From Nitrosomonadales bacterium (GTDB lineage: Bacteria; Pseudomonadota; Gammaproteobacteria; Burkholderiales; Gallionellaceae): a DNA stretch of 34,819 nucleotides. Numbering within the stretch: position 1 is the stretch's first letter; every line of letters starts with the position of its first letter. Of the stretch, positions 2,198-33,801 are shown piece by piece. Made by a program: the position numbers and the translations under genes. The notes below the pieces were generated by a model that ran no database searches, was not told the DNA's origin, and saw nothing but the letters and a program-made list of their open reading frames with translations. The stretch is from assembly GCA_016218475.1 (NCBI GenBank), contig JACREB010000159.1, positions 1 through 34,819 on the forward strand. The letters are read 5' to 3'.

Positions 2198-2258
2198 TGA
2201 TGAAACAACTAGCCATTCGACTAGGCCATCAAAAGGCGATGTCCAAGTCGCTGGTTAT
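2198..2258 (+). repeat. REP-like palindrome B, copy 1
   Basis: Imperfect hairpin beginning TGATGAAACAACTAGCC and ending GCTGGTTAT. The arms are CGACTAGGCCATC and GCGATGTCCAAGTCG around an AAAAG loop. The same element recurs at 18561-18615 (inside ileS, opposite strand), 23049-23110 and 29889-29977. It directly abuts the F-type palindrome at 2259-2362. Confidence 0.8.
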
Positions 2259-3618: not shown

Positions 3619-4782
3619 ATGAGATTGTCTGCGCATCCGCTATGGCTGGTGGGCTTTCGTCCGTTTTTCGGGTTGGCGTGTTTATCTGGGTTGAGCCTGC
3701 CGATCTTATGGGCATTGTTTTTTTCGGGTATTGTTTCGATGCCGGCCATGCCGTTTTCCATGGTGCAATGGCATGCCCACGAAATGTTCTTCGGCTTCGG
3801 CTGGGCTGTTCTCGGTGGTTTCATGCTGACCTCGACCAAGAACTGGGTGAATGTGCGGGGCTACCACGGTTATCCGCTGATGTTTCTTGTTGCCGCATGG
3901 CTCTTCGAGCGGGCCGGCATGTGGTTTGTGGGGAGTTGGCCGCCATTCCTGTTCCGGATTTCAAACAACCTGTTCCTGGCGGCGGTTGTTGCGATGATTT
4001 TGTGGACGCTGATACGCAACCGCAAGAATGACACTTATCGCGGCGACAACATCTTCTTTTTGGTGATCCTTCCTGTTTTTCTGGTGGCGAAGAACCTGAT
4101 GCTCAGCGCGGAATATGCGCAGGTTGGCTGGAGCATGGCGGTGGGACTTTTCCGGATGGCATTCCTGGTGATGCTGGAACGGACGCTCGCGCAGTTTATG
4201 AAGGCCGGATTCCAGGTTTCGATCCTTAGTAATCCGGTGCTGAACAAGGCAATCAAGATTCTCGGGCTGATGTTGGTGTTCGAAAGCCTGATGCCGCCGC
4301 AGCTATCCGGCTGGATTGCGCTGCTGCTCGCGCTATTGCTGGCGGGACGCTTCTTTTTCTGGAAACCGCAGTTGGCCATGCAGCGGCTCGATATCGGGGT
4401 CATGTACCTGGGCTACCTCGCGCTTGTCGCGCAACTGCTGATCGAGTTCGCCAGGCATGTCGCCCACCCCGAATGGCCTGCATCCATCTCCATCCATGTT
4501 TTTACTTTCGGCGTGATGGGCGTCATTATTCCCGGCATGCTGGTCAGAATATCGAAGGGGCACACGGGCAGAAAAGCGAGTTTCGATGCTGCCGACAAAA
4601 TGGTTCTCAGGGTTATGATCCTGGCATTCGTGTTACGCGTTGTTGCGCCACAGATTTATCCTGCCGGTTACACGCTCTGGATTTACCTCGCGGCATTTTG
4701 CTGGCTGGCCTGTTTTGCGACGCTCGCGTGGCGGTATATTCCCATGCTGGTGCAGCCACGGGTCGATGGCAAGGAACATTAA
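3619..4782 (+). CDS. nnrS: NnrS-family heme/copper membrane protein
   Basis: Polytopic inner-membrane protein of 387 residues with about 12 hydrophobic segments. NnrS proteins are linked to nitric oxide and nitrogen-oxide metabolism and stress. Family hallmarks are the N-terminal GFRPFFGLACLSG, the histidine motif WHAHEMFFGFGWAVLGGF, and HVFTFGVMGVIIPGMLVRIS followed by KGHTGR. An upstream in-frame ATG at 3586 exists. The start at 3619 is preferred because AAGGGGGCAAG precedes it directly and MRLSAHPLWLVGFRPFF matches the family N-terminus. The TAA stop (4780-4782) lies inside the 4-bp target duplication of MITE copy 2. It lies upstream of a signalling operon with a possible nitrate/nitrite-type sensor domain, suggesting but not proving a shared theme. 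Confidence 0.9.
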   Translation: MRLSAHPLWLVGFRPFFGLACLSGLSLPILWALFFSGIVSMPAMPFSMVQWHAHEMFFGFGWAVLGGFMLTSTKNWVNVRGYHGYPLMFLVAAWLFERAGMWFVGSWPPFLFRISNNLFLAAVVAMILWTLIRNRKNDTYRGDNIFFLVILPVFLVAKNLMLSAEYAQVGWSMAVGLFRMAFLVMLERTLAQFMKAGFQVSILSNPVLNKAIKILGLMLVFESLMPPQLSGWIALLLALLLAGRFFFWKPQLAMQRLDIGVMYLGYLALVAQLLIEFARHVAHPEWPASISIHVFTFGVMGVIIPGMLVRISKGHTGRKASFDAADKMVLRVMILAFVLRVVAPQIYPAGYTLWIYLAAFCWLACFATLAWRYIPMLVQPRVDGKEH

Positions 4783-4925
4783 TCTTACTGTGTCACATAG
4801 CGCTGAAGGGTGCATTGCGGCGTTAAAATCGGGCTCAAAATGCTCATTTACGCTATGTAAACTCCGCTTTTTCACCCGATTTTGCCTTGCACTGCATCCC
4901 TTGATCGCTATGTGACACAGTAAGA
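4783..4925 (+). mobile_element. MITE copy 2, complete, 143 bp
   Basis: Terminal repeats TCTTACTGTGTCACATAGCG and its exact reverse complement bound the element, and TTAA flanks it on both sides (4779-4782 and 4926-4929). The inner 30 bp on each side are also imperfect complements, so the whole unit can fold into one long hairpin with a roughly 40-nt loop. It lacks the roughly 50-bp internal segment of copies 1 and 3. The 4-bp duplication and terminal repeats are the classical signs of transposition. No transposase is present. The upstream nnrS stop codon and the leader of the downstream kinase gene are made partly of this element. Confidence 0.88.
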
Positions 4926-4952
4926 TTAACAGGCTTTGTGCGTTGTTCAATT

Positions 4953-5684
4953 ATGGATAAAACATTTCACCCCATTTTGACTGACCGGCAAGAGCTGTCG
5001 GATATGCACCTGCAAATCCGCCGCATGTGCCACGACCTCAACGCGCCCATCCGCGCCATCCACGGCTTTGCGGAAATCCTGCAACGGCGTGAGGCAGCCC
5101 AATTGAGCGAAAAAAGCAATATGTACTTGCAGCGCATGGTTGCGGCTACGTACACCATGGAGCGGATTGTCGGTCGCCTGCACCAGTATGCCCGGCTTGC
5201 CACCCACGAGGTAAAACTCAAGCCTGTCCCGGTCGCGCAGTTTACCGGGGAAATAATCTCCACCCATTACCGCAACCTGCCGGATGGCGCATCGTTGCAA
5301 TGGAAGGCGGACCAGGCTCTGGTATGGTTCAGCGATCCATCGCTGCTGGAAACCATTTTGCGGGAACTGGTGGAAAATGCCCTGCTGTACACAAAGGCGG
5401 GGATTCCTCCCCAAGTGAATATTGACTGGAACGCCGAGCAAGACAGGCTGTTGCTGACAATCAGCGACGAGGGTATCGGCATCGACCCGGGATATCACCA
5501 GCGCGTCTTCGACCTGTTCGAGCGACTGCATGGCCGCGACCATTATCCGGGCGCAGGAGCGGGGCTCACCATGGTGCTCAAGGCGGTCACTTTGCTGGGC
5601 GGCACGATTGCGCTCGCTTCCGCTGTCGGTTTCGGCACCACCGTGCAAATTTTGCTGCCCAAGCATGATGGAGCAAGCGTATGA
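4953..5684 (+). CDS. soluble histidine kinase, phytochrome-like HisKA/HATPase, no sensor domain
   Basis: A 243-residue cytoplasmic kinase made only of a dimerisation/phosphoacceptor domain and an ATPase domain. The phosphoacceptor is His27 in MCHDLNAPIRAIHGF, of the phytochrome-kinase type. The N box is ELVENALLYTK, the G1 box DEGIGID, and the F/G2 region VFDLFERL to GAGAGLTMVLK. No input domain is present, so it presumably depends on a partner, plausibly the membrane sensor encoded next (ATGA overlap at 5681-5684). A GTG at 4938 is an alternative start; ATG 4953 is taken as the conventional choice, but neither has a clear Shine-Dalgarno. The leader is MITE-derived, so the insertion may have changed its expression. 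Confidence 0.85.
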   Translation: MDKTFHPILTDRQELSDMHLQIRRMCHDLNAPIRAIHGFAEILQRREAAQLSEKSNMYLQRMVAATYTMERIVGRLHQYARLATHEVKLKPVPVAQFTGEIISTHYRNLPDGASLQWKADQALVWFSDPSLLETILRELVENALLYTKAGIPPQVNIDWNAEQDRLLLTISDEGIGIDPGYHQRVFDLFERLHGRDHYPGAGAGLTMVLKAVTLLGGTIALASAVGFGTTVQILLPKHDGASV

Positions 5685-7117
5685 GCCGGCAACCCTCATC
5701 TCCGGCATCGCTGCTGGCACCCGGCATCAGGTTTGTGCAGAACCTCAAGTTCGCGGAAAAATTCCTGCTTGTTTTTCTGTTGCTCCTGATCCCGCTCACT
5801 TATGCAAGTTACTACCTTCTTGACGATGTACACCAGCATACCCGGGAGAAACAGTTTGAAATGGATGGGCTGCAATATGCGATTCAGGTTTCTGCGCTGC
5901 TCGAATTGATCCCGCAGCATCGCGGCATGACCAACGGGCTGTTGCAGGGCGACGAACGCTTCCGCGCCAGAATCGCGGCCATGCAACCGGCGCTGGAAAA
6001 GGCGCTGGCCGATGCAGATGCCGCAGACCGGCGCTGGGGAGCCGAATTACGGCTGCACGGGCCATGGCAGCAGGTTCGCTCCCGCTGGCTGAAGCTGCAT
6101 GGCGATACCGGGCAATTGACCGCCGAAGCCAGTTGGCGGCAGCACACCGTCCTGATTGCAGACTACATGAATTTGATTTTTCGCATCACCATCAATAGCA
6201 CACTTTACACTGAAGGCGATCCGTCCACACGCCATCTGATCGAAGTGAATTTTCATTACCTGCCCCAGCTCATCGAGGCTTTGGGTCAATTGCGCGGCAG
6301 CGGATCGGGCATGATCGCGGACGGAAAAATTTCCCATGACGAGAACCACGAATTTGCTCGCCTGATACCAAATGTATCGGCACTCGCCCGTGACGTGCGA
6401 CGCAACATGGGGTTTGCCTTTGAACTCAGCCGACCATTACAAACAGCCTTTGCCGGTCAGGCCAATCAGGCGATCAGCCAGGCTGATGATTATGCGGCGC
6501 TGGCCAAGACGCAAGCGCTGCAGCCTACCCTCTCCGCCCCGCTCTATTTCGACCGCGGAACCGAAGCCATTTCCAGCGGCTACCGCCTGCTCAAGATGAC
6601 CACGGAATATGTCCATAACAGTCTTGCGCAGGAAATCGGGAGCCTCAACAACCACAGAAACACCCTGGTCATTATATTCATCATGGGGATGCTCATCATC
6701 GGCTATCTGATCATGGCCTTTTACTCCTCGATCCGCCATATCACCAAAAGCCTTGAAAATGTTGTGGATCACCTGCAACGCGGCGAGGCGCCGCAGGAGG
6801 TTGCCTTGCCGGGGCGCGACGAGCTGGGCAACATTGTCCGGTTGTTCAACCGGCTATCCGTGCAACTGATCCGAACCAATACCGAACTGCAACGCAGCCA
6901 CCATGAAGATCAACTGCTCGGTAGCCTTTCGCTGCTGGCACTGCAGAACGATGACCTGGAGCAGTTTGCAAAAGCCGCCTTGCCCCTGATTGTCGCCGCC
7001 GGGTGGCTGCCCTGCAAACCGGTCGGTCAGATCAATCTGGTGCGCGACGATAAAAACTGGGCGGGAAATGCCCGCCCGCCATCCTGCTTACCGGCCAGCC
7101 GGATGTGCATTCAATAG
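5681..7117 (+). CDS. membrane sensor (possible NIT-like domain, HAMP), truncated in GAF
   Basis: Residues 24-47 form a first membrane helix. A largely helical periplasmic domain runs to about 328; it contains LIPQHRGMTNGLLQGD, which recalls nitrate/nitrite-sensing (NIT) domains. A second membrane helix lies at about 329-350, followed by a HAMP domain to about 405. A GAF domain then begins (LEQFAKAALPLIVAAGWLP) but is cut after some 40 residues. From about residue 460 the frame reads through a hairpin (7059-7077) into a receiver-domain relic out of frame, giving a nonsense tail ending CLPASRMCIQ. Any original kinase module is lost. GGAG precedes the start, which overlaps the upstream kinase by ATGA. 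It may still act as a sensor subunit, or be a decaying gene. Confidence 0.7.
   Translation: MSRQPSSPASLLAPGIRFVQNLKFAEKFLLVFLLLLIPLTYASYYLLDDVHQHTREKQFEMDGLQYAIQVSALLELIPQHRGMTNGLLQGDERFRARIAAMQPALEKALADADAADRRWGAELRLHGPWQQVRSRWLKLHGDTGQLTAEASWRQHTVLIADYMNLIFRITINSTLYTEGDPSTRHLIEVNFHYLPQLIEALGQLRGSGSGMIADGKISHDENHEFARLIPNVSALARDVRRNMGFAFELSRPLQTAFAGQANQAISQADDYAALAKTQALQPTLSAPLYFDRGTEAISSGYRLLKMTTEYVHNSLAQEIGSLNNHRNTLVIIFIMGMLIIGYLIMAFYSSIRHITKSLENVVDHLQRGEAPQEVALPGRDELGNIVRLFNRLSVQLIRTNTELQRSHHEDQLLGSLSLLALQNDDLEQFAKAALPLIVAAGWLPCKPVGQINLVRDDKNWAGNARPPSCLPASRMCIQ
7059..7077. other. perfect hairpin at a deletion junction
   Basis: GGGCGGG at 7059-7065 and CCCGCCC at 7071-7077 flank a five-base AAATG loop. 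Left of it the sequence encodes a GAF domain in one frame; from 7069 rightwards it encodes the middle of a receiver domain in another frame. The hairpin therefore coincides with the fusion point of two unrelated coding segments. Confidence 0.75.
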
Positions 7118-10562: not shown

Positions 10563-11276
10563 TCATGCCGCCACCTCATTATGCGTGGTCTGGTCGCCGA
10601 CGATGCGCCCGTCATGGAATTTCACCTGACGTTTGGCATGGCGTGCGATCTCCGTTTCGTGGGTCACCAGCACGATGGTGATGCCCTCGCGGTTAAGCGC
10701 TTCAAACAAGGCCATGATTTCTTCACCGGTTTGGCTGTCGAGATTGCCGGTCGGCTCGTCGGCGAGCAGCAGGCGGGGGCGGTTGACCAGCGCGCGCGCA
10801 ATCGCCACGCGCTGTTGCTGGCCGCCGGAAATCTTGTTGGGCATGGAATCCGCCTTGTCTTCCAGGCCGACTTTGGCGAGCAGTTCCCGCGCGCGCCGCC
10901 GGCGTTCCTCGCGTTCCATTCCGCAATAAATCAGCGGCAGGGACACGTTTTCCAGCAGCGTCATGCGCGGCAGCAGGTTGAAACCCTGGAACACGAACCC
11001 GATGGTGCGGTTGCGCAACAGGGCCAGTTCATCCTTGCCCAGATTCGCAACGTCGCGACCGTCCAGCACATAGCGCCCGGCGCTGGGTTTGTCGAGGCAG
11101 CCGAGGAGATTCATGAAAGTGGATTTGCCCGAGCCGGACGGCCCCATGACGGCGACGAATTCGCCGGAAGCGATGCACAGATCTACATTCTTCAATGCCG
11201 GAAATAATCCGGCAGAAGTCTCGTAGGACTTGTACAAGCTTTCAATGCGGATAACGGAGTCGGTCATGGTTCCCAT
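10563..11276 (-). CDS. ABC transporter ATPase, MacB/LolD-type
   Basis: Cytoplasmic ATPase of 237 residues that powers the exporter formed with the adjacent permease, adaptor and TolC-like genes. It shows Walker [10 protein letters not shown], a Q-loop in FVFQGFNLLPRMT, signature [15 protein letters not shown], Walker [13 protein letters not shown] and the H-loop in LVTHE. ATG 11276 overlaps the adaptor stop (TGATG). A second ATG at 11267 is equally plausible because IRIESLYKSYE follows either. The C-terminus NEVAA ends in an ATGA-like overlap remnant. A repeat block now separates it from the permease by 175 bp, whereas the genes presumably once overlapped. Confidence 0.93.
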   Translation of the reverse strand: MGTMTDSVIRIESLYKSYETSAGLFPALKNVDLCIASGEFVAVMGPSGSGKSTFMNLLGCLDKPSAGRYVLDGRDVANLGKDELALLRNRTIGFVFQGFNLLPRMTLLENVSLPLIYCGMEREERRRRARELLAKVGLEDKADSMPNKISGGQQQRVAIARALVNRPRLLLADEPTGNLDSQTGEEIMALFEALNREGITIVLVTHETEIARHAKRQVKFHDGRIVGDQTTHNEVAA

Positions 11277-12535
11277 CAGAACATTCTCATTGGCGGCCTG
11301 CCACCGGAGCCGGTTGCCTTGTCTGTCGCCTGTGTTTCGCCGACGATCACCTGGTCGCCTGTTTTGAGTTCCCCGCCGATGATTTCGGTATTGCGGTTGT
11401 CGGTGATGCCGAGCGACACGGTGACCGGTGCGAGCTCCCCATTTTTCAGCGTATACACCTTGCCGAAAAAGGTATCGCGCGGGTGCCCGGACAAATGTTT
11501 TCCGTCTTTCGGGTGCCCGGCCAAAAGCTTTTCGGAGGGTTTGGCGGGGCCGTCATCGCCCGCACCGCCGGGTTGGCCGCGTTTCTGGCCGCCGCTGGCC
11601 TTGTCGCCGCCGGTCGGCTTGAAGCGCAATGCGGCGTTGGGAACGACCAGCACATCTTTGCGCTCGGCCACGGCGATGCTCACATAAGCGGTCATGCCGG
11701 GCAGCAGGATCTGTTCGGGGTTCCCCACGTTGATCACCACATCGTAGGTGACAACATTTTGAAGGGTAGTCGGGTTAAGGCGTATCAGCTTGACTTCGCC
11801 TTTAAAGCTGCGCCCCGCGAAGGCATCGACGGTGAAACGCACCTCCTGGCCGACACGGATGTTGCCGATATCCGCCTCGGCAAAGTTGGCGTCGATCTGC
11901 ATCTTGGATAAATCCTGCGCGATCTTGAACAGCGTAGGGGTTTGCAGGCTGGCGGCAACGGTCTGGCCGACATCTACCGTACGATCCACCACCACGCCGG
12001 ATACCGGCGAGCGGATGACCGAATAGGCGAGGTTGGCCTGGTCTTTTTCCACTGTCGCCCGCGTCAATTGCAATTGCGCTTCGGCGGCTTTTTTGGCTTG
12101 CACGGCGGTATCCAGTTCCTGGCGCGAAACATATTCCAGCGCGAACAGGCTGCGCATGCGCGCTTCGTTTGCTGTGGTCAGTTCCAGCGAAGCCGTGGCG
12201 CTTTGCACGTTGGCCCGGCTTTGCTTGATCTGCGCGGAAAGCAGCGCATCATCCAGTTCCAGCAGAACTTGCCCTTTTTGAACCTTGCTGTTGAAATCCA
12301 CATATAGTTTTTTTACCGTGCCTGAAACCTGCGTGCCCACATTCACCAGGGACACGGGATTGATCGTGCCGTTGGCCGAAACGGTCTGGCTGACGTCGCC
12401 TTTTTCCACGGGTTGCACGCGGTATTGCTGTTCCGGCGGAACCATGTGGAGCTGGCGGTACGTGGCGGCGCCTGCGGCGATGGCGGCAACGGCGATGAAG
12501 AACAAGGGTATAGGGGAGCGTAATATTTTTTTCAT
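11276..12535 (-). CDS. macA: MacA-like periplasmic adaptor (membrane fusion protein)
   Basis: HlyD/MacA-family adaptor, 419 residues, linking the inner-membrane ABC pump to a TolC channel. An N-terminal membrane anchor (about 9-26) is followed by a biotinyl-lipoyl half (VGTQVSGTVKKLYVDFNS), an alpha-hairpin (about 100-165), the second lipoyl half (VIRSPVSGVVVDRTVDVGQT), a beta-barrel and a membrane-proximal domain. The ATG overlaps the tolC stop by four bases, and the stop overlaps the ATPase start, so the operon is tightly coupled. A linker after ALRFKPTGG is unusually Gly/Pro-rich. Within it, repeat D is translated in frame as [18 protein letters not shown] (about residues 337-354). Confidence 0.92.
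   Translation of the reverse strand: MKKILRSPIPLFFIAVAAIAAGAATYRQLHMVPPEQQYRVQPVEKGDVSQTVSANGTINPVSLVNVGTQVSGTVKKLYVDFNSKVQKGQVLLELDDALLSAQIKQSRANVQSATASLELTTANEARMRSLFALEYVSRQELDTAVQAKKAAEAQLQLTRATVEKDQANLAYSVIRSPVSGVVVDRTVDVGQTVAASLQTPTLFKIAQDLSKMQIDANFAEADIGNIRVGQEVRFTVDAFAGRSFKGEVKLIRLNPTTLQNVVTYDVVINVGNPEQILLPGMTAYVSIAVAERKDVLVVPNAALRFKPTGGDKASGGQKRGQPGGAGDDGPAKPSEKLLAGHPKDGKHLSGHPRDTFFGKVYTLKNGELAPVTVSLGITDNRNTEIIGGELKTGDQVIVGETQATDKATGSGGRPPMRMF
11479..11527 (-). repeat. repeat D inside macA, in frame
   Basis: The minus strand of 11503-11527 is identical over 25 bases to 29932-29956 just upstream of pyrG (starting CTTTTGGCCGGGCACCCG). A second shared block, TGTCCGGGCACCCGC, lies at 11493-11479 here and 29976-29990 there. 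The spacer between blocks differs. Here the repeat is coding (AGHPKDGKHLSGHPRD); upstream of pyrG it is not. Confidence 0.75.
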
Positions 12536-14100
12536 GGCCGGCTTCTCTTCTGTTGGGAACCCGCGCCGGGCTGCTCGCTGCTGTCCGGCAAGGTTTGTAA
12601 TAAGCCGATATCCAGGCTGCCCATTGCCTGGGCGAGCGTGGCGCGGCTGATGTTCCAGTTGAACGTGGACTGGATGCGCTGCTGGCGCGCGCCGGCCAGC
12701 GCGCTTTGCGCATTCAATACATCCAGCATGTTGCCGACTCCGGCCTTGTAGCGGCCGAGCGCGACACGCTCCGATTGCTCTGCGCTATTCAGCAAATCGG
12801 CAGTCGAGCGCAGCGACTGTGTCGCGGTGGTGAGATTCTGGTAGGCCGTCCAGACATCCAAAGCCACCTGTAAACGCAGGCGCTCCAGTTGCGCATTTTT
12901 TGTTTCCACCTGCGCTTCGGCGGCGCGTATCCGGTAGGTTGGCGCGTACCCGGAGAAAATCGGCACACTTAAAGTGATGCCTACCGATGAACCCCGCGAG
13001 GTATCGCCCGCCCTGGTGTTTTGATTGGCAGAGGCGGCGAGGGATACAGACGGTTTATCCGCCGCGCGCGCCGCATCCGCATTGGCTTCGGCGGCCTTTA
13101 CCTGCGCTGCCGCAGCATATAGATCGGGGCGGTGCTGCCGCGCTTCCTCTATCAGCGCGGCCACATCGCGCTCAAAAATCTTAAGGGCTTCACCTTCGCC
13201 CCAATCGCTATTATCCCCTTTACCTTCACGAGAGAGGGCTAGAGAAACGGAAAATCCTTCCGCTGCCGCCAGCGGCACATTCCGGTTGGCGTCCAGCCCG
13301 AGTATGTTTGCCAGCGCACCCTTTGCATTTTTCATGTTGCCGTCGGCGGTAATGCGGTTCAGCGTGGCTTGCGAATAAGCCGTTTGCGCCTGCAGCTTGT
13401 CGGCGGGTGTAGCGCTTCCGGCGTTATAGCGCGCCTCGGCGGCGGCAAAACTTTCTTTCGCGGCACGTTCCGATTCGTGCGCTGCATCCAGTGCGGCAAG
13501 AGCCGCCTGTGTCTGGTAGAAAGACTGCACAGCCGAGAGAAAAACTGTTTGCACCGTGCTGTCCTGGGCGGCCGCCGCCGCGTCCAGCAATTGGCGGGCA
13601 TTCTCCAGGTTTGCATCGCGCGCACCGAAATCGTACAGCAGATAGGAAAGGCTCAAGCCGATACTGTGTTGGTTCACGGCGGATGCGGTATCTACCCAGA
13701 TGCGCTCGCCCGAAGCGGCCATGCTTGCGCTGGGCAAATAGCTTGCCCTGCTTATGCCGACCTGGGCCGCCTGTACCCGTGCGCTTGCCCACGCCTCGCG
13801 TGTTTGCGGGTTGTTGCACAACGCGAGATTGACCACATCCGGCAATCCGAAGAGCTTTTGGCCGGGCGCCCGGTCGAGCGCATCGTTCGGCACGGCTTCC
13901 GCACATGGATCGCCAACTGCGCCACTTGGCCGCAATGCGGGCCGCTCCGACAGGCCCGGGGCAGGCTTCATCGGTGCCAGCGCCTCCGTGCCGAACGGGT
14001 CGGAGATTTCTCCGGCAACAACCGGCCTGCTGCAAAGGCAAAGCAGGGCGCAGATAGCCAGCCGTTTCACCGGCGGTTTTACCGGGGCAGAATATTTCAT
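12532..14100 (-). CDS. TolC-family outer-membrane efflux protein
   Basis: Outer-membrane channel subunit, 522 residues. A signal peptide (about 1-29, ending RPVVAG) is followed by a proline-rich N-terminal stretch and two OEP repeats. Typical motifs are VVNLALCNNPQTREAWA, LSYLLYDFGARDANLENARQ and LSVPIFSGYAPTYRIRAAEA. The reading frame is open upstream to 14334, but ATG 14100 is chosen because the signal peptide starts there. It leads a minus-strand operon with macA, ATPase and permease. A short charged insertion (SREGKGDNSDWGEGE) between the two halves has a repeat-like look. No Shine-Dalgarno is evident. Confidence 0.9.
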   Translation of the reverse strand: MKYSAPVKPPVKRLAICALLCLCSRPVVAGEISDPFGTEALAPMKPAPGLSERPALRPSGAVGDPCAEAVPNDALDRAPGQKLFGLPDVVNLALCNNPQTREAWASARVQAAQVGISRASYLPSASMAASGERIWVDTASAVNQHSIGLSLSYLLYDFGARDANLENARQLLDAAAAAQDSTVQTVFLSAVQSFYQTQAALAALDAAHESERAAKESFAAAEARYNAGSATPADKLQAQTAYSQATLNRITADGNMKNAKGALANILGLDANRNVPLAAAEGFSVSLALSREGKGDNSDWGEGEALKIFERDVAALIEEARQHRPDLYAAAAQVKAAEANADAARAADKPSVSLAASANQNTRAGDTSRGSSVGITLSVPIFSGYAPTYRIRAAEAQVETKNAQLERLRLQVALDVWTAYQNLTTATQSLRSTADLLNSAEQSERVALGRYKAGVGNMLDVLNAQSALAGARQQRIQSTFNWNISRATLAQAMGSLDIGLLQTLPDSSEQPGAGSQQKRSRP

Positions 14101-17190: not shown

Positions 17191-17213
17191 AAACCCGTCA
17201 ACTGCGTTTTCCA

Positions 17214-17247
17214 GGATGACAGAATTTTTGGGATGACAGGATTTTTG
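17214..17247 (+). repeat. 17-bp tandem duplication upstream of ileS
   Basis: GGATGACAGAATTTTTG is followed at once by GGATGACAGGATTTTTG (16 of 17 identical). It lies 24 bases before the ileS start. Confidence 0.75.
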
Positions 17248-17270
17248 ATAGATTTTGTTTTGGAATAAAA

Positions 17271-20216
17271 ATGACCGACTACAAGAACACCCTGAATTTA
17301 CCCGATACCCCGTTTCCGATGCGCGGCGACCTCGCGAAGCGCGAGCCGCAGATGGTGGCTCGCTGGCAGGCGCAGCAGCGCTACCGGAAAATCCGCGCGG
17401 CCAAACACGGCAAGCAGAGATTCATCCTGCACGACGGCCCGCCGTATGCGAACGGCGACATCCACATCGGCCACGCGGTGAACAAGATACTCAAGGACAT
17501 TATCGTCAAATCGAAAACCTTGGCCGGATTCGATGCGCCCTATGTGCCGGGCTGGGACTGCCACGGCCTGCCGATCGAGTTGCAGGTGGAGAAGAAACAC
17601 GGCAAGGCGATTCCGCCCGCGCAGTTCCGCGAGCTGTGCCGCGCTTATGCCAAAGAGCAGATCGAGAGGCAGAAGAAAGACTTTATCCGGCTCGGCATAC
17701 TGGGTGACTGGGATCATCCGTACCTGACGATGGATTTCAGGACCGAGGCCGACATCATGCGCGCGCTCGGAACCATCCACGAGCGCGGCTACCTGTATCA
17801 GGGGCGCAAGCCGGTGAACTGGTGCCTGGATTGCCAGTCGGCATTGGCCGAGGCCGAAGTGGAATACGAGGATAAGACTTCGCCCGTGATCGACGTGGGT
17901 TTCGAGGTCAAGGACAGACACGCGCTGGAAAAGGCGTTCGGTGTGTCGTTGCCGGGTGATGCCAGGGTATATGCGGTGATATGGACCACCACACCGTGGA
18001 CGCTTCCGGCCAATCAGGCGGTCTGCGTACACCCGGAGCATACATACAACTTGCTCAAGTCTGATCGCGGATATTTGATATTGGCAAAAGAGCTTGTTTT
18101 GGGCTGGGCTATGCGCCTCGATTTGACGGTAGATGTTGCCGCCAGTTGTACGGGTGCGGCTTTGGAAATGCTATCGCTGCAACATCCATTCCATGACCGC
18201 ATCGTGCCGATCATCTGCGGCGAGCATGTCACGCTGGAAGCGGGTACCGGGCTGGTGCATACCGCACCGGCGCACGGCTTGGACGATTATTTTATAGGGC
18301 AAAAATATGACCTGCCGACCGATAACCCGGTCGGCGACGATGGCAAGTTTATCGCCAGCACGCCACTGGTTGGTGGCTTATTCGTGTGGAAAGCCAACGA
18401 TGTGGTGATCGGCGCATTGCAAGCCAGCGGCCATTTATTGCACCTGGAAAAAGTGCAGCACAGCTATCCGCATTGCTGGCGGCACAAGACGCCGATCATT
18501 TTCCGCTCCACGCCGCAGTGGTTCATCGGGATGGATTCCAGAGGACAGAGGACAGAGGACATAACCAGCGACTTGGCTGTCGTTTCTGGACAGCCTAGTC
18601 GAATGGCTAGTAGTTCCACCAGAGGACAGAATCAGGCACAATCAGCGGCGGACGAATTAGTGCAGGAAAAGCGCGAACATGGTGCGATTCATGCGCAGCC
18701 TGTTGGCGCAAGCTTGCGCGATCTTGCCAATCAAGCGGTCGAGGCTACTCAGTTCTATCCGGCATGGGGAAAGGCGCGCCTCGAAGCGATGATCAAAAAC
18801 CGCCCGGACTGGTGCGTGTCGCGCCAGCGCAACTGGGGTGTGCCGATGCCGTTTTTCGTGCATCGCGAAACGATGCAACTCCATCCGCGCACGCCGGAAT
18901 TGCTGGAGCAGGTCGCGCAGCTTGTCGAGCAGGATGGCATCGAGGCGTGGTTCGACCTGAACTCGGTGGATATGCTGGGCGAGGAGGCGGCGCACTACAG
19001 GAAACTCACCGACACGCTGGACGTGTGGTTCGACTCCGGCGTCACCCATGCGTCCGTGTTGCAGCGCCGCGCGGATTTGCATTCGGGCTCAGATCATCTG
19101 GCAGACCTGTACCTGGAAGGCTCGGACCAGCATCGCGGCTGGTTCCAGTCGTCGCTGCTGACCGGCTGCGCGATCAATGGTCACGCGCCTTTCAAGGCCT
19201 TGCTGACGCACGGCTTCGTCGTGGATGGGCACGGCCACAAGATGAGCAAGTCCAAGGGCAACGTGATCGCCCCGCAGAAGGTGCTCGACACGCTCGGCGC
19301 CGACATCCTGCGCCTGTGGGCGGCCCTGACCGACTACTCCGGCGAACTGACCATCTCCGACGAAATCCTCAAGCGCGTGGTGGAAAGCTACCGGCGCATC
19401 CGCAACACATTGCGCTTCCTGCTGGCCAATATTTCGGATTTTGACCCGCAACGGCATGCCTTGCCCGTGGAGCAATGGCTGGAAATCGACCGCTATGCGC
19501 TGGTGCTGGTTAAAAATTTGCAGGATGAACTCGTTGCGGATTATGCGCGCTATGAATTTCATCTGATCGCACAAAAATTGCAGACTTTCTGCTCAGAGGA
19601 TATGGGCGGTTTCTATCTCGATATTCTGAAAGACCGTCTGTACACCGCCGGGGAAAATTCCGCAGCACGCCGTTCCGCGCAGAATGCGCTGTATCACATC
19701 ACCCACAGCCTGGTGCGCCTGATGGCGCCGATACTCAGCTTCACCGCGGAGGAGGTGTATGAGGTATTGGGCGGCAGGGATGATGCGAGCGTGTTTGAAC
19801 AAGAATGGTATGAACTGCCCCAACACGGACTCGGCGCATCAACTGTGAGTGATTGGTTTGAGATTCGCAGAGACAGAGAATATGCGAATAAGCAGATTGA
19901 AGAATTACGCTCGGAGAGGAAGTTGGGTTCACCCTTGCAGGCGGAGCTGAAAATTCGCGCTTGTATGTCGCGTTATGACAGATTGGCCAGGCTTGGCGAC
20001 GATTTGAAATTTGTTTTTATCACCTCGAAAGTTTCCCTGGAGAAAGCTAGCAACATTGCGGCTGAAGGTATTGAAGTCACGCCCAGCGCCCACACCAAAT
20101 GCGAACGTTGCTGGCACTACCGCGCTGACGTGGGCAGCGATGCCAATCATCCGGCGCTATGCGGCCGTTGCGTGAGCAACCTGTTCGGTAGCGGCGAGGC
20201 ACGGAAATATGCTTAA
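17271..20216 (+). CDS. ileS: isoleucyl-tRNA synthetase with an in-frame repeat insertion
   Basis: Charges tRNA-Ile with isoleucine and edits misactivated valine. The 981-residue product is about 43 longer than E. coli IleRS (938). The HIGH motif is at residues 65-68, KMSKS at 657-661, and the C-terminal zinc site is CERCWHY to CGRC. The extra length lies between WFIGMD (residue 422) and LRDL (482), before [16 protein letters not shown]. coli has only a short linker there. The insertion includes three AGAGGAC units, a B palindrome and a fourth unit (18540-18627), then about 28 further extra residues. All key catalytic motifs are intact and the frame is open, so the enzyme is presumably functional. 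GGA lies seven bases before the ATG. It overlaps lspA by eight bases. Confidence 0.97.
18540..18627 (-). repeat. REP-like palindrome B copy 2 inside an AGAGGAC array, within ileS
   Basis: AGAGGAC units occupy 18540-18560 (three) and 18621-18627 (one). Between them lies a 60-bp block with B in reverse orientation: ATAACCAGCGACTTGGCTGT at its left end, arms 18569-18581 and 18589-18601 (12 of 13 paired), and GGCTAGTAGTT at its right end. Sixty bases equal 20 codons, so the frame is kept. The translation includes [11 protein letters not shown] and [12 protein letters not shown]. Confidence 0.85.
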
Positions 20217-20685
20217 TCGCTGGCTGTGGCTGAGCGCCTTGGTGATCGTGCTCGACCAGTTGAGCAAGGCGTGGATCACCAATTATTTTGCCTATGGCGA
20301 AAATCTTTATGTACTCAGCGTGTTCAATCTGGTGCTGGTGCATAACACCGGTGCGGCGTTCAGCTTTCTCAGCGATGCGGGCGGGGTACAGCGCTGGCTG
20401 TTCGGCATCATCGCAGTCGTCGCATCGGTATGGATCGTCTCGCTGCTGCGCAGGCACGCTACCCAACTCCTGTTTTCCCTGGCGCTGAGCCTGATCCTCG
20501 GCGGCGCATTGGGCAACCTGATCGACCGTATCGCCTACGGCTATGTGATCGATTTTTTGCACTTCCACTGGGATGAGCATTACTTTCCGGCCTTCAATGT
20601 CGCCGATTCCGCGATTACGTGCGGCGCGTTTTTATTGATTCTGGACAGTTTTACGGGGAAAAAGCATGGATCTGCTGCTGGCTAA
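20209..20685 (+). CDS. lspA: lipoprotein signal peptidase (signal peptidase II)
   Basis: Membrane aspartic protease that cleaves the signal peptide of prolipoproteins after lipidation. The 158-residue product has four hydrophobic segments and the family motifs [28 protein letters not shown] and [11 protein letters not shown]. The catalytic pair is Asp106 and Asp133. ATG 20209 overlaps the ileS stop by eight bases, and the C-terminus overlaps ispH by 20 bases. ileS-lspA-ispH is a common proteobacterial order and indicates one transcript. Confidence 0.96.
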
Positions 20686-22998: not shown

Positions 22999-23134
22999 AC
23001 CCCCTCCCGGCCTCCCCTTGTCAGGGGAGGAGCTATCTGCTTCCCCCCTGATAAAACTACTAGCCATTCGACTTGGCTATCAAAAGACGATAACCAAGTC
23101 GCTGGTTATGACAAGGGGGGATTGAGGGGGGTTG
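22999..23134. repeat. F-type repeat copy 2 enclosing B
   Basis: CCCCTCCCGGCCTCCCCTTG and CAGGGGAGG on the left and GACAAGGGGGG plus GAGGGGGG on the right bracket REP-like B copy 3. Outside it, GTGAAACG-like units at about 22966-22990 face TTTCACCTTTCAC units at 23153-23170 in inverted orientation. Confidence 0.6.
23049..23110 (+). repeat. REP-like palindrome B, copy 3
   Basis: Begins TGATAAAACTACTAGCC and ends GCTGGTTATG. The arms CGACTTGGCTATC and GATAACCAAGTCG pair in 12 of 13 positions around a short A-rich loop. It lies between the adaptor and ATPase genes of the second exporter, within the F-type repeat. Confidence 0.8.
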
Positions 23135-27998: not shown

Positions 27999-28402
27999 GG
28001 GGGTATACTTTACGCGCCTGTCGGTGGGCGGATTCAAGTTTGAAGTGCGACAGCTAATTCTACTGTGTCACAAAGCGATCAAGGGATGCAGTGCAAGGCA
28101 AAATCGGGCGAAGCGGGTCAAGCAGGGATGGGCGGCTTGCCGTTGCCGCCCAACTCGCAAAAAGCGGAGTTTACATGGAGTAAATGAGCATTTTGAGTCC
28201 GATTTTAACGCCGCAATGCGCCCTTCAGCGCTTTGTGACACAGTAGAACTAATGGTGGCTTGGGTTAACTGCGCTTCTCGCCGATTATCGTATGGCGCAA
28301 GAATTTTTTGCCGGTTATCATGCGCGGCATGCAGGGCATTCGCACGATAACCTCGCCTGCGGCATTGTGCGAAGTTTTTCATAAGGTGCGGGACGGTTGA
28401 AT
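27999..28402. other. glgA-yihY intergenic region
   Basis: About half of this 404-bp stretch is MITE copy 3. The remainder contains no credible gene. Frames that cross the MITE are repeat-derived (for example the peptide SALCDTV). Confidence 0.6.
28058..28248 (-). mobile_element. MITE copy 3, complete, 191 bp, inverted
   Basis: TTCTACTGTGTCACAAAGCG and its exact complement form the ends. CTAA flanks both sides (28054-28057 and 28249-28252) as a 4-bp target duplication. Compared with copy 2 it is inverted and retains an extra internal segment shared with copy 1. It lies 60 bp after the glgA stop. Confidence 0.88.

Positions 28403-29888: not shown

Positions 29889-33801
<3,913 letters not shown>

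Follow-up and report, generated by a model that had tools for sequence, protein, structure and literature searches.

The ileS gene of this Gallionellaceae bacterium contains, between two units of an AGAGGAC heptamer array, a 60-nt palindromic block that recurs throughout the genome and lies in the reading frame of isoleucyl-tRNA synthetase (IleRS), and the finding, first made in an earlier note on this DNA, is real and wider than first noted. The explanation that we consider very probable as a whole is that this block, referred to here as PAL, is a REP/MITE-like element which entered the heptamer array, producing an in-frame gain in a tolerated linker. The core inference of the earlier note, namely that a dispersed, non-native palindrome survives in frame in the ileS linker of a betaproteobacterium, is supported by relatives, by a structure model and by other genes. 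The window referred to throughout is the whole 34,819-nucleotide stretch of DNA that was analyzed, and it belongs to a Gallionellaceae metagenome assembly that is 86% complete and totals 2.3 Mb over 221 contigs. The nearest ileS genes among named contigs are those of Gallionella and related metagenome-assembled genomes, at 78-79% identity in the best segment.

The ileS gene (17271..20216, plus strand) encodes a product of 981 amino acids, its frame is open through the insert, and the product matches the NCBIfam equivalog TIGR00392 at 883 bits (cut-off 621) over residues 15-894. After codon 423, three in-frame AGAGGAC heptamers (18540..18560, plus strand), translated as RGQRTED, are followed by PAL (18561..18620), recognized by its repeat copies, hairpin and covariation, and then by a fourth heptamer (18621..18627, plus strand), such that PAL sits between heptamers 3 and 4. 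The 5'-3' direction of the element, by our own definition, runs here on the minus strand. The array layout claimed previously, three AGAGGAC units, a 60-bp block and a fourth unit, is exact on direct reading, and the block does provide 20 codons without a stop in the ileS frame, precisely codons 431-450. The earlier note had also taken residues 423-480 as the repeat insert; this holds for residues 424 to ~453 (88 nt, about 29 codons and not 58), whereas the remaining half (18628..18710, plus strand) is native variable linker that is not repeat-derived, the DNA from 18628 to the LRDL motif being present in relatives without repeats (common to G016, locus L212, and from ELVQEKR onward also to L062). 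In the solved IleRS structure 8c9e, 6 residues (416-421) stand where the window protein has 64. No Rfam family was found in 17200-20300 up to an E value of 1.

Copies, Ends, and Hairpin of the Element

With up to 3 mismatches allowed in a 19-nt core, PAL is found 86 times in the genome, compared with 3 times for the reversed pattern, and it occurs in 68 of the 76 genomes of the genus, our own included, at 0 to 122 copies each (up to 2 mismatches), the reversed control giving at most one match per genome. Its recurrence elsewhere in the window, as the earlier note had it, was found at 2199..2258, 3' of a lytic transglycosylase gene, at 23050..23109, within another C/G-rich palindrome, and at 29890..29976, just upstream of pyrG, all three being pattern matches on the plus strand; the last is 87 nt long, and its loop contains a nested 27-bp repeat (29923-29949). 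With the left edge permitted at any of four offsets, 67 of the 85 copies with a recognizable 3' end are 60 nt in length, and among the remaining 18, several of which are tandem or nested and hence not independent, the length is divisible by three in 12 and not in 6. When the left edge is fixed, the element starts with GATG, GATA, or GGTG in 68/86 copies, and most copies end in TTAT. The dinucleotide CT directly precedes the left edge in 55/86 copies at one fixed offset (background 0.048), or in 69/85 on a looser count in which four offsets were permitted.

The element folds as one long hairpin (DNA z-scores of -5.0 and -4.4 on the two strands). In 26 of the 59 equal-length copies, hand-picked as differing, pairing was seen in 96.2% of cells compared with 86.3% in shuffles, double-changed cells numbered 47 vs. 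13, 8 of 18 pairs were changed on both sides vs. 4.4, and the covariation score was 0.292 vs. 0.101, none of 500 shuffles being as high on any of these measures; these shuffle results are not a probability because the copies are related. A fifth measure, further pair types, was not raised (18 vs. 17.1; 195/500 shuffles). The signal was lost when the partner was slid, and pair counts on all 59 equal-length copies agree with those of the sample. The hairpin is thus kept by compensatory changes, a pattern consistent with selection or mobilization on a folded strand. With a compensated hairpin and many dispersed copies, PAL has the general properties of REP-like elements. The idea that PAL is built for openness in many frames was rejected, with 2.6 open frames of 6 compared with 2.28 in shuffles.

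The ileS Linker in Relatives

A search of 40 relatives returned 30 ileS loci (one of them the window's own), with the loop visible in 26 and not in the other four (L211, L230, L231, and L234). At the same position as in the window, G005 has GATTCC followed by AGAGGAC AGAGGAC AGAGGGC AGAGGAC and no PAL. Removal of the 60 bp from the window gene leaves GATTCC and four AGAGGAC units, as in the G005 array, so the difference is 60 bp, and no target-site duplication was found at the array in this comparison. The ileS of G013 has a degenerate heptamer array without PAL, and that of G016 has no array, with a right flank as in the window. The lack of PAL at this site in all three, taken with the 86 genome copies, upholds the earlier view of the palindrome as a non-native dispersed repeat in ileS. 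An IleRS tree of 52 rows was built (L111 and L211 lacking the motif, 8 duplicates dropped, and loops classed by motif), in which the window sits with L064 (support 93), apart from G005 and G013. With no sister relationship to the window, G005 represents a PAL-free arrangement at the site and not the immediate ancestor.

These comparisons suggest an order of events at ileS in which the array came first and PAL second. The heptamer array would have arisen or arrived in the variable linker after the WFIGM motif of the ileS lineage, and PAL would then have inserted precisely between two of the heptamers. This step would have lengthened the gene by 60 nt, or 20 in-frame codons, without duplicating or deleting any of the target. 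It is also conceivable, if unlikely, that heptamer-PAL-heptamer entered ileS as a ready-made composite, through recombination or gene conversion from a like locus. The separate position of the window from the array-bearing G005 and G013 in the tree would suit such an event, PAL does lie inside heptamer arrays at other loci (7/84 flank pairs in a rough motif sort), and the contig C177 matches 86 of 104 nt (query 10-95) at 92%. However, the C177 match stops within a few bases of the heptamers, and G005 and G013, the latter in degenerate form, have the array at this position without PAL, which indicates that the ileS array can exist alone. Stepwise insertion of PAL into an existing array is the reading that we retain.

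The IleRS linker has taken in other repeat families in other Gallionellaceae. Repeat-type loops are seen in 10/52 tree rows (4 C-rich, 2 PPSP, 2 heptamer, L074 and the window), where L208 and L227 were assigned on the motif alone, and the tree requires 4 changes for the C-rich class and 2 for the PPSP class. L073, with a 38-residue repeat loop, adjoins G011, with a 10-residue loop, at ~0.035 changes per column (support 94), and this short distance makes the loop difference recent. In the L074 loop, PAL is inverted relative to the window and lies within a different repeat. When 14 loops were compared with the DNA of other loci, 6 matched repeats outside ileS (L064, L066, L073, L074, L078, and the window), with 2 to 4 repeat pieces matched in each of L064, L066, L073, and L078, and the other 8 had no match in the loci compared. 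The loops of L084, L090, and L065 look repeat-like and were not counted, having no match elsewhere in those loci.

Structure of the Insert

An AlphaFold2 (AF2) model of IleRS from 53 sequences (mean pLDDT 82.7, pTM 0.79; an earlier model from 33 sequences was weak, with a mean pLDDT of 67) matches the solved IleRS structures 8c9f and 1qu2. Residues 430-475, between a strand (408-419) and a helix (482-492), form the longest stretch with pLDDT below 50, and the insert is accordingly predicted to be a disordered linker. It would be tolerated because this linker is of variable length and predicted to be disordered. The earlier note had proposed an element aimed at a tolerated surface loop. In-frame survival in a variable, predicted disordered linker agrees with the tolerance, but nothing points to the aiming: PAL lies within a repeat array, and a test for preference for hairpin loops was negative. 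The survival of intragenic PAL copies in frame and in linkers is likely due to purifying selection and not to targeting, and the added residues would be translated into the protein and probably neutral. A functional, selected insertion domain of the genus, for example one that provides a new contact surface, is quite improbable; 21/52 tree rows, as classed by motif, do have a long linker bearing an LVQEKR-like motif, but the repeat-derived part differs by species, being heptamers, PAL in either orientation, C-rich repeat, PPSP or nothing, and is itself predicted to be disordered.

PAL and Heptamers in Other Genes

Across the elements, 125 candidate open ORFs were collected, of which 40 were scanned with Pfam and 10 proteins with NCBIfam. 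For PAL, 52 copies outside the window have candidate ORFs, and 30 of these were scanned and 22 left out. Family matches lie on both sides of or across PAL in 17 of the 30 scanned copies, which with ileS gives 18/86 copies in 16 genes, a count of candidates chosen as open ORFs, outside which copies that break genes out of frame would fall. Besides ileS, these genes encode an RNB exoribonuclease, a glucokinase, a UvrD/Rep helicase, a CobB/CobQ-type amidotransferase, a FAD-dependent protein (with a weak left-hand match of 28.5 bits, cut-off 27.9), a nitrite/sulfite reductase-like protein, an alpha/beta hydrolase, an HAE3 transporter and a 3HCDH-crotonase fusion, together with uvrC, prmC, priA, dnaE, typA, and the farnesyl diphosphate synthase gene ispA, the last two with two copies each. 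A check suggested by the earlier note thus found, when run, the palindrome inside 15 other genes whose matches flank or span it. A copy in C9 was not counted as intragenic as it is located between the NuoC and NuoD matches. An assembly or binning artifact, with wrong contigs of a repeat-rich metagenome-assembled genome joined inside ileS, can be set aside as extremely improbable despite the 221 contigs and 86% completeness, since the frame is kept across the ileS segment and these 15 other genes, and other genomes have repeats at the same IleRS site, including PAL in L074.

Several of these inserts can be delimited by comparison with relatives, ten of which were searched in each case. In uvrC, an insert of 87 bp (29 aa) consists of the 27-bp repeat and PAL (60 nt), is absent in 8/8 relatives in which the gene was found (two had no match), and shows no target-site duplication at PAL. 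The uvrC of G020 has the peptide of the 27-bp repeat (SEKLLAGHP) at a second site and the PAL peptide at a third, where, judged by the protein alignment, it looks to be situated within an apparent repeat that the G013 UvrC has there without PAL. The dnaE insert of 240 bp (80 aa) is absent in 10/10 relatives. The two PAL copies of typA accompany 126 bp (42 aa) more than in G016 and are absent in 8/8 relatives with an orthologue (two had only paralogues). In ispA, there are 137 extra residues here, 28 in G013 and 0 in the other 8 of the 9 relatives with the gene (one had only a paralogue); the G013 residues correspond to the host repeat alone, in frame, and the insert here (L161, own genome C198, ~5400-5820) consists of two PALs and the 27-bp repeat, nested. 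Among solved structures, 3ts7 has 7 residues where the IspA query has 143 unaligned, and 3lfu has 3 where UvrD has 53.

Ten heptamer arrays with ORFs were scanned, and 5 are located in genes whose matches surround or span the array, namely rpoC, mutL, cheA, and those for homoserine dehydrogenase and a family M3 peptidase. The RpoC heptamer dimer was rejected as an insertion because there is no net length gain relative to solved RpoC.

Companion Repeats and Nesting

The heptamer dimer AGAGGACAGAGGAC occurs at 77 places in the genome compared with 0 for the control, and 48 arrays of at least two exact AGAGGAC units were found in the genome stretches fetched. In these stretches, 10 facing pairs of AGAGGAC arrays surround a double-hairpin core. 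One example, at C183:5906-6014, has hairpins such as GTGCCGC..GCGGCAC and CGCGGC..GCCGCG, and the arrays resemble the terminal arms of a BIME-like element. The 27-bp repeat TCCGAAAAGCTTTTGGCCGGGCACCCG and its variants are present in 9 uninterrupted copies in the stretches compared. By a rough motif sort, 58/84 PAL copies lie within one of seven other repeat families, with 31 in the C-rich CCCTCT^CCCGC repeat and 7 in AGAGGAC arrays. A preference of PAL for hairpin loops was rejected, with stems of at least 6 bp at 6/84 copies vs. 3.1% of random CT sites and stems of at least 4 bp at 24/84 vs. 28%. In the own-genome locus L035 (C48, ~12260-12340), a prepilin-like N_methyl motif follows PAL directly, and the start codon may come from the GGTTATG end of the element; close by, a PilX-like gene begins next to a heptamer array.

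Origin and Mobilization

We regard PAL as a non-autonomous palindromic element of the genus, of the REP/MITE-like kind, and propose that the process envisaged for ileS also decorated at least 15 other genes of the genome, with repeats nesting inside earlier repeats. Our best guess as to how PAL moves is a single-strand transposase of the RAYT/TnpA-REP type acting in trans. TnpA-REP is described as cleaving at a CT 5' or 3' of REPs (PMC8266576), and the insertion without duplication, the hairpin and the left-edge CT of PAL would be compatible with such single-strand chemistry. No autonomous parent with PAL ends was found, the single 3' ends in C83, C174, and C3 belonging to short or diverged copies. 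The genome has two Y1_Tnp matches, L141 and L142, one above the family cut-off and one below. A RAYT gene beside PAL was looked for and rejected, as neither locus has PAL at up to 4 substitutions in this 86% complete genome. Both adjoin repeats that, read by eye, are other than PAL (at L141 of the GTAGGGCGGG type), so these Y1_Tnp matches may serve a different REP family. Given that PAL is without a GTAG tag and is not found beside the Y1_Tnp matches, a RAYT-type route remains a guess. We also entertain, as a doubtful speculation, a standing system of the genus in which palindromes whose lengths preserve the frame (27 and 60 nt, each divisible by three) insert into one another in genes without target duplication, enzymes such as farnesyl diphosphate synthase, the DNA polymerase III alpha subunit and IleRS gain linkers stepwise, and the lengths are selected for coding compatibility.

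Comparison With Known Elements

The genus that hosts PAL is related to free-living iron oxidizers. The Rickettsia palindromic elements (RPE) are described as several families of dispersed palindromes, both intergenic and in frame in housekeeping genes (PMC10969869). PAL is similarly dispersed, intergenic and in frame in unrelated housekeeping genes, where it adds tens of residues, and like RPE it lies in frame in unrelated protein-coding genes (18/86 copies, 16 genes), although by the RPE descriptions it is set apart by its 60 nt compared with ~150 bp and by a host genus that differs from the obligate intracellular hosts of RPE (PMC10969869). The RPE of R. conorii is reported to have a CGTC tag at one end (PMC3733652), whereas PAL is without this tag and has ends that are mostly GATG/GATA/GGTG and TTAT. 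Intragenic REPs with GTAG and CGTC tags have also been described from several bacteria, often in genes for repair and replication, with hosts that include excinuclease ABC, UvrD/Rep, DnaE, and tRNA synthetase genes and with clusters that encode 43 to 82 residues (PMC3733652). PAL is likewise a short palindrome in repair, replication and tRNA synthetase genes; however, it has neither tag, lies mostly within other repeats, and by nesting gives in-frame composites that reach 137 residues. The Rickettsial elements, which the earlier note cited as the known precedent, are therefore a fitting one, with PAL likewise in frame in core genes, but not the sole one in view of these intragenic REPs (PMC3733652).

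The hairpin of PAL and its edge CT, the TnpA-REP cleavage dinucleotide (PMC8266576), recall the REPs associated with RAYT, but PAL is without their GTAG tag, with CTAG just before its stem, and no RAYT gene is flanked by PAL at the L141 and L142 loci. The enterobacterial RU/ERIC repeats (PMC2759123) and the Coxiella QMITEs (PMC5896051) are described as small mobile repeats with ORFs that become fused to genes, and they are longer than PAL, at 103-168 bp and ~190 bp, respectively (PMC2759123; PMC5896051). Full-size QMITE2 is reported to have flanking direct repeats of 7-9 bp (PMC5896051), in contrast to PAL, which lacks the target-site duplication of MITEs at ileS and uvrC, the two sites examined for it. 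At title and abstract level, in mainly open literature on Gallionella or Gallionellaceae repeats and on palindromes in isoleucyl-tRNA synthetase, no account of this case was found. Intragenic palindromes are already known from Rickettsia and other bacteria; what is new is a 60-nt untagged palindrome that is frequent in core genes and whose nesting is traceable from genome to genome.

Protein-coding palindromes thus occur densely in a lineage other than Rickettsia. The comparison genomes are near enough to show essential genes without an insert, with the host repeat and with nested repeats, and the origin of new protein segments from selfish DNA becomes directly testable. The natural insertions also map tolerant places in IleRS, DnaE, UvrC, UvrD, TypA, and IspA. 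Finally, they serve as a warning for annotation, as some length differences of these enzymes among Gallionellaceae stem from repeats.

Other Repeats of the Window

AGAGGAC occurs 8 times in the window vs. 1.5 expected (0/100 shuffles as high). Four of these heptamers (31618..31645, plus strand) form the last codons of pyrG before its stop, where the CTP synthase match ends at residue 546/553, so that pyrG, after ileS, is a second essential gene of the window in which heptamers are read in frame. The 27-bp repeat is in frame (SEKLLAGHP) at 11510..11536 (minus strand) in a MacA-like adaptor gene (11276-12535, minus strand), and the neighboring outer membrane efflux gene has a degenerate copy in the opposite orientation at 13846-13872. 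A long repeat family with TGTGACACAGTA ends is found in both orientations at 1-138, 4777-4929, and 28055-28254.
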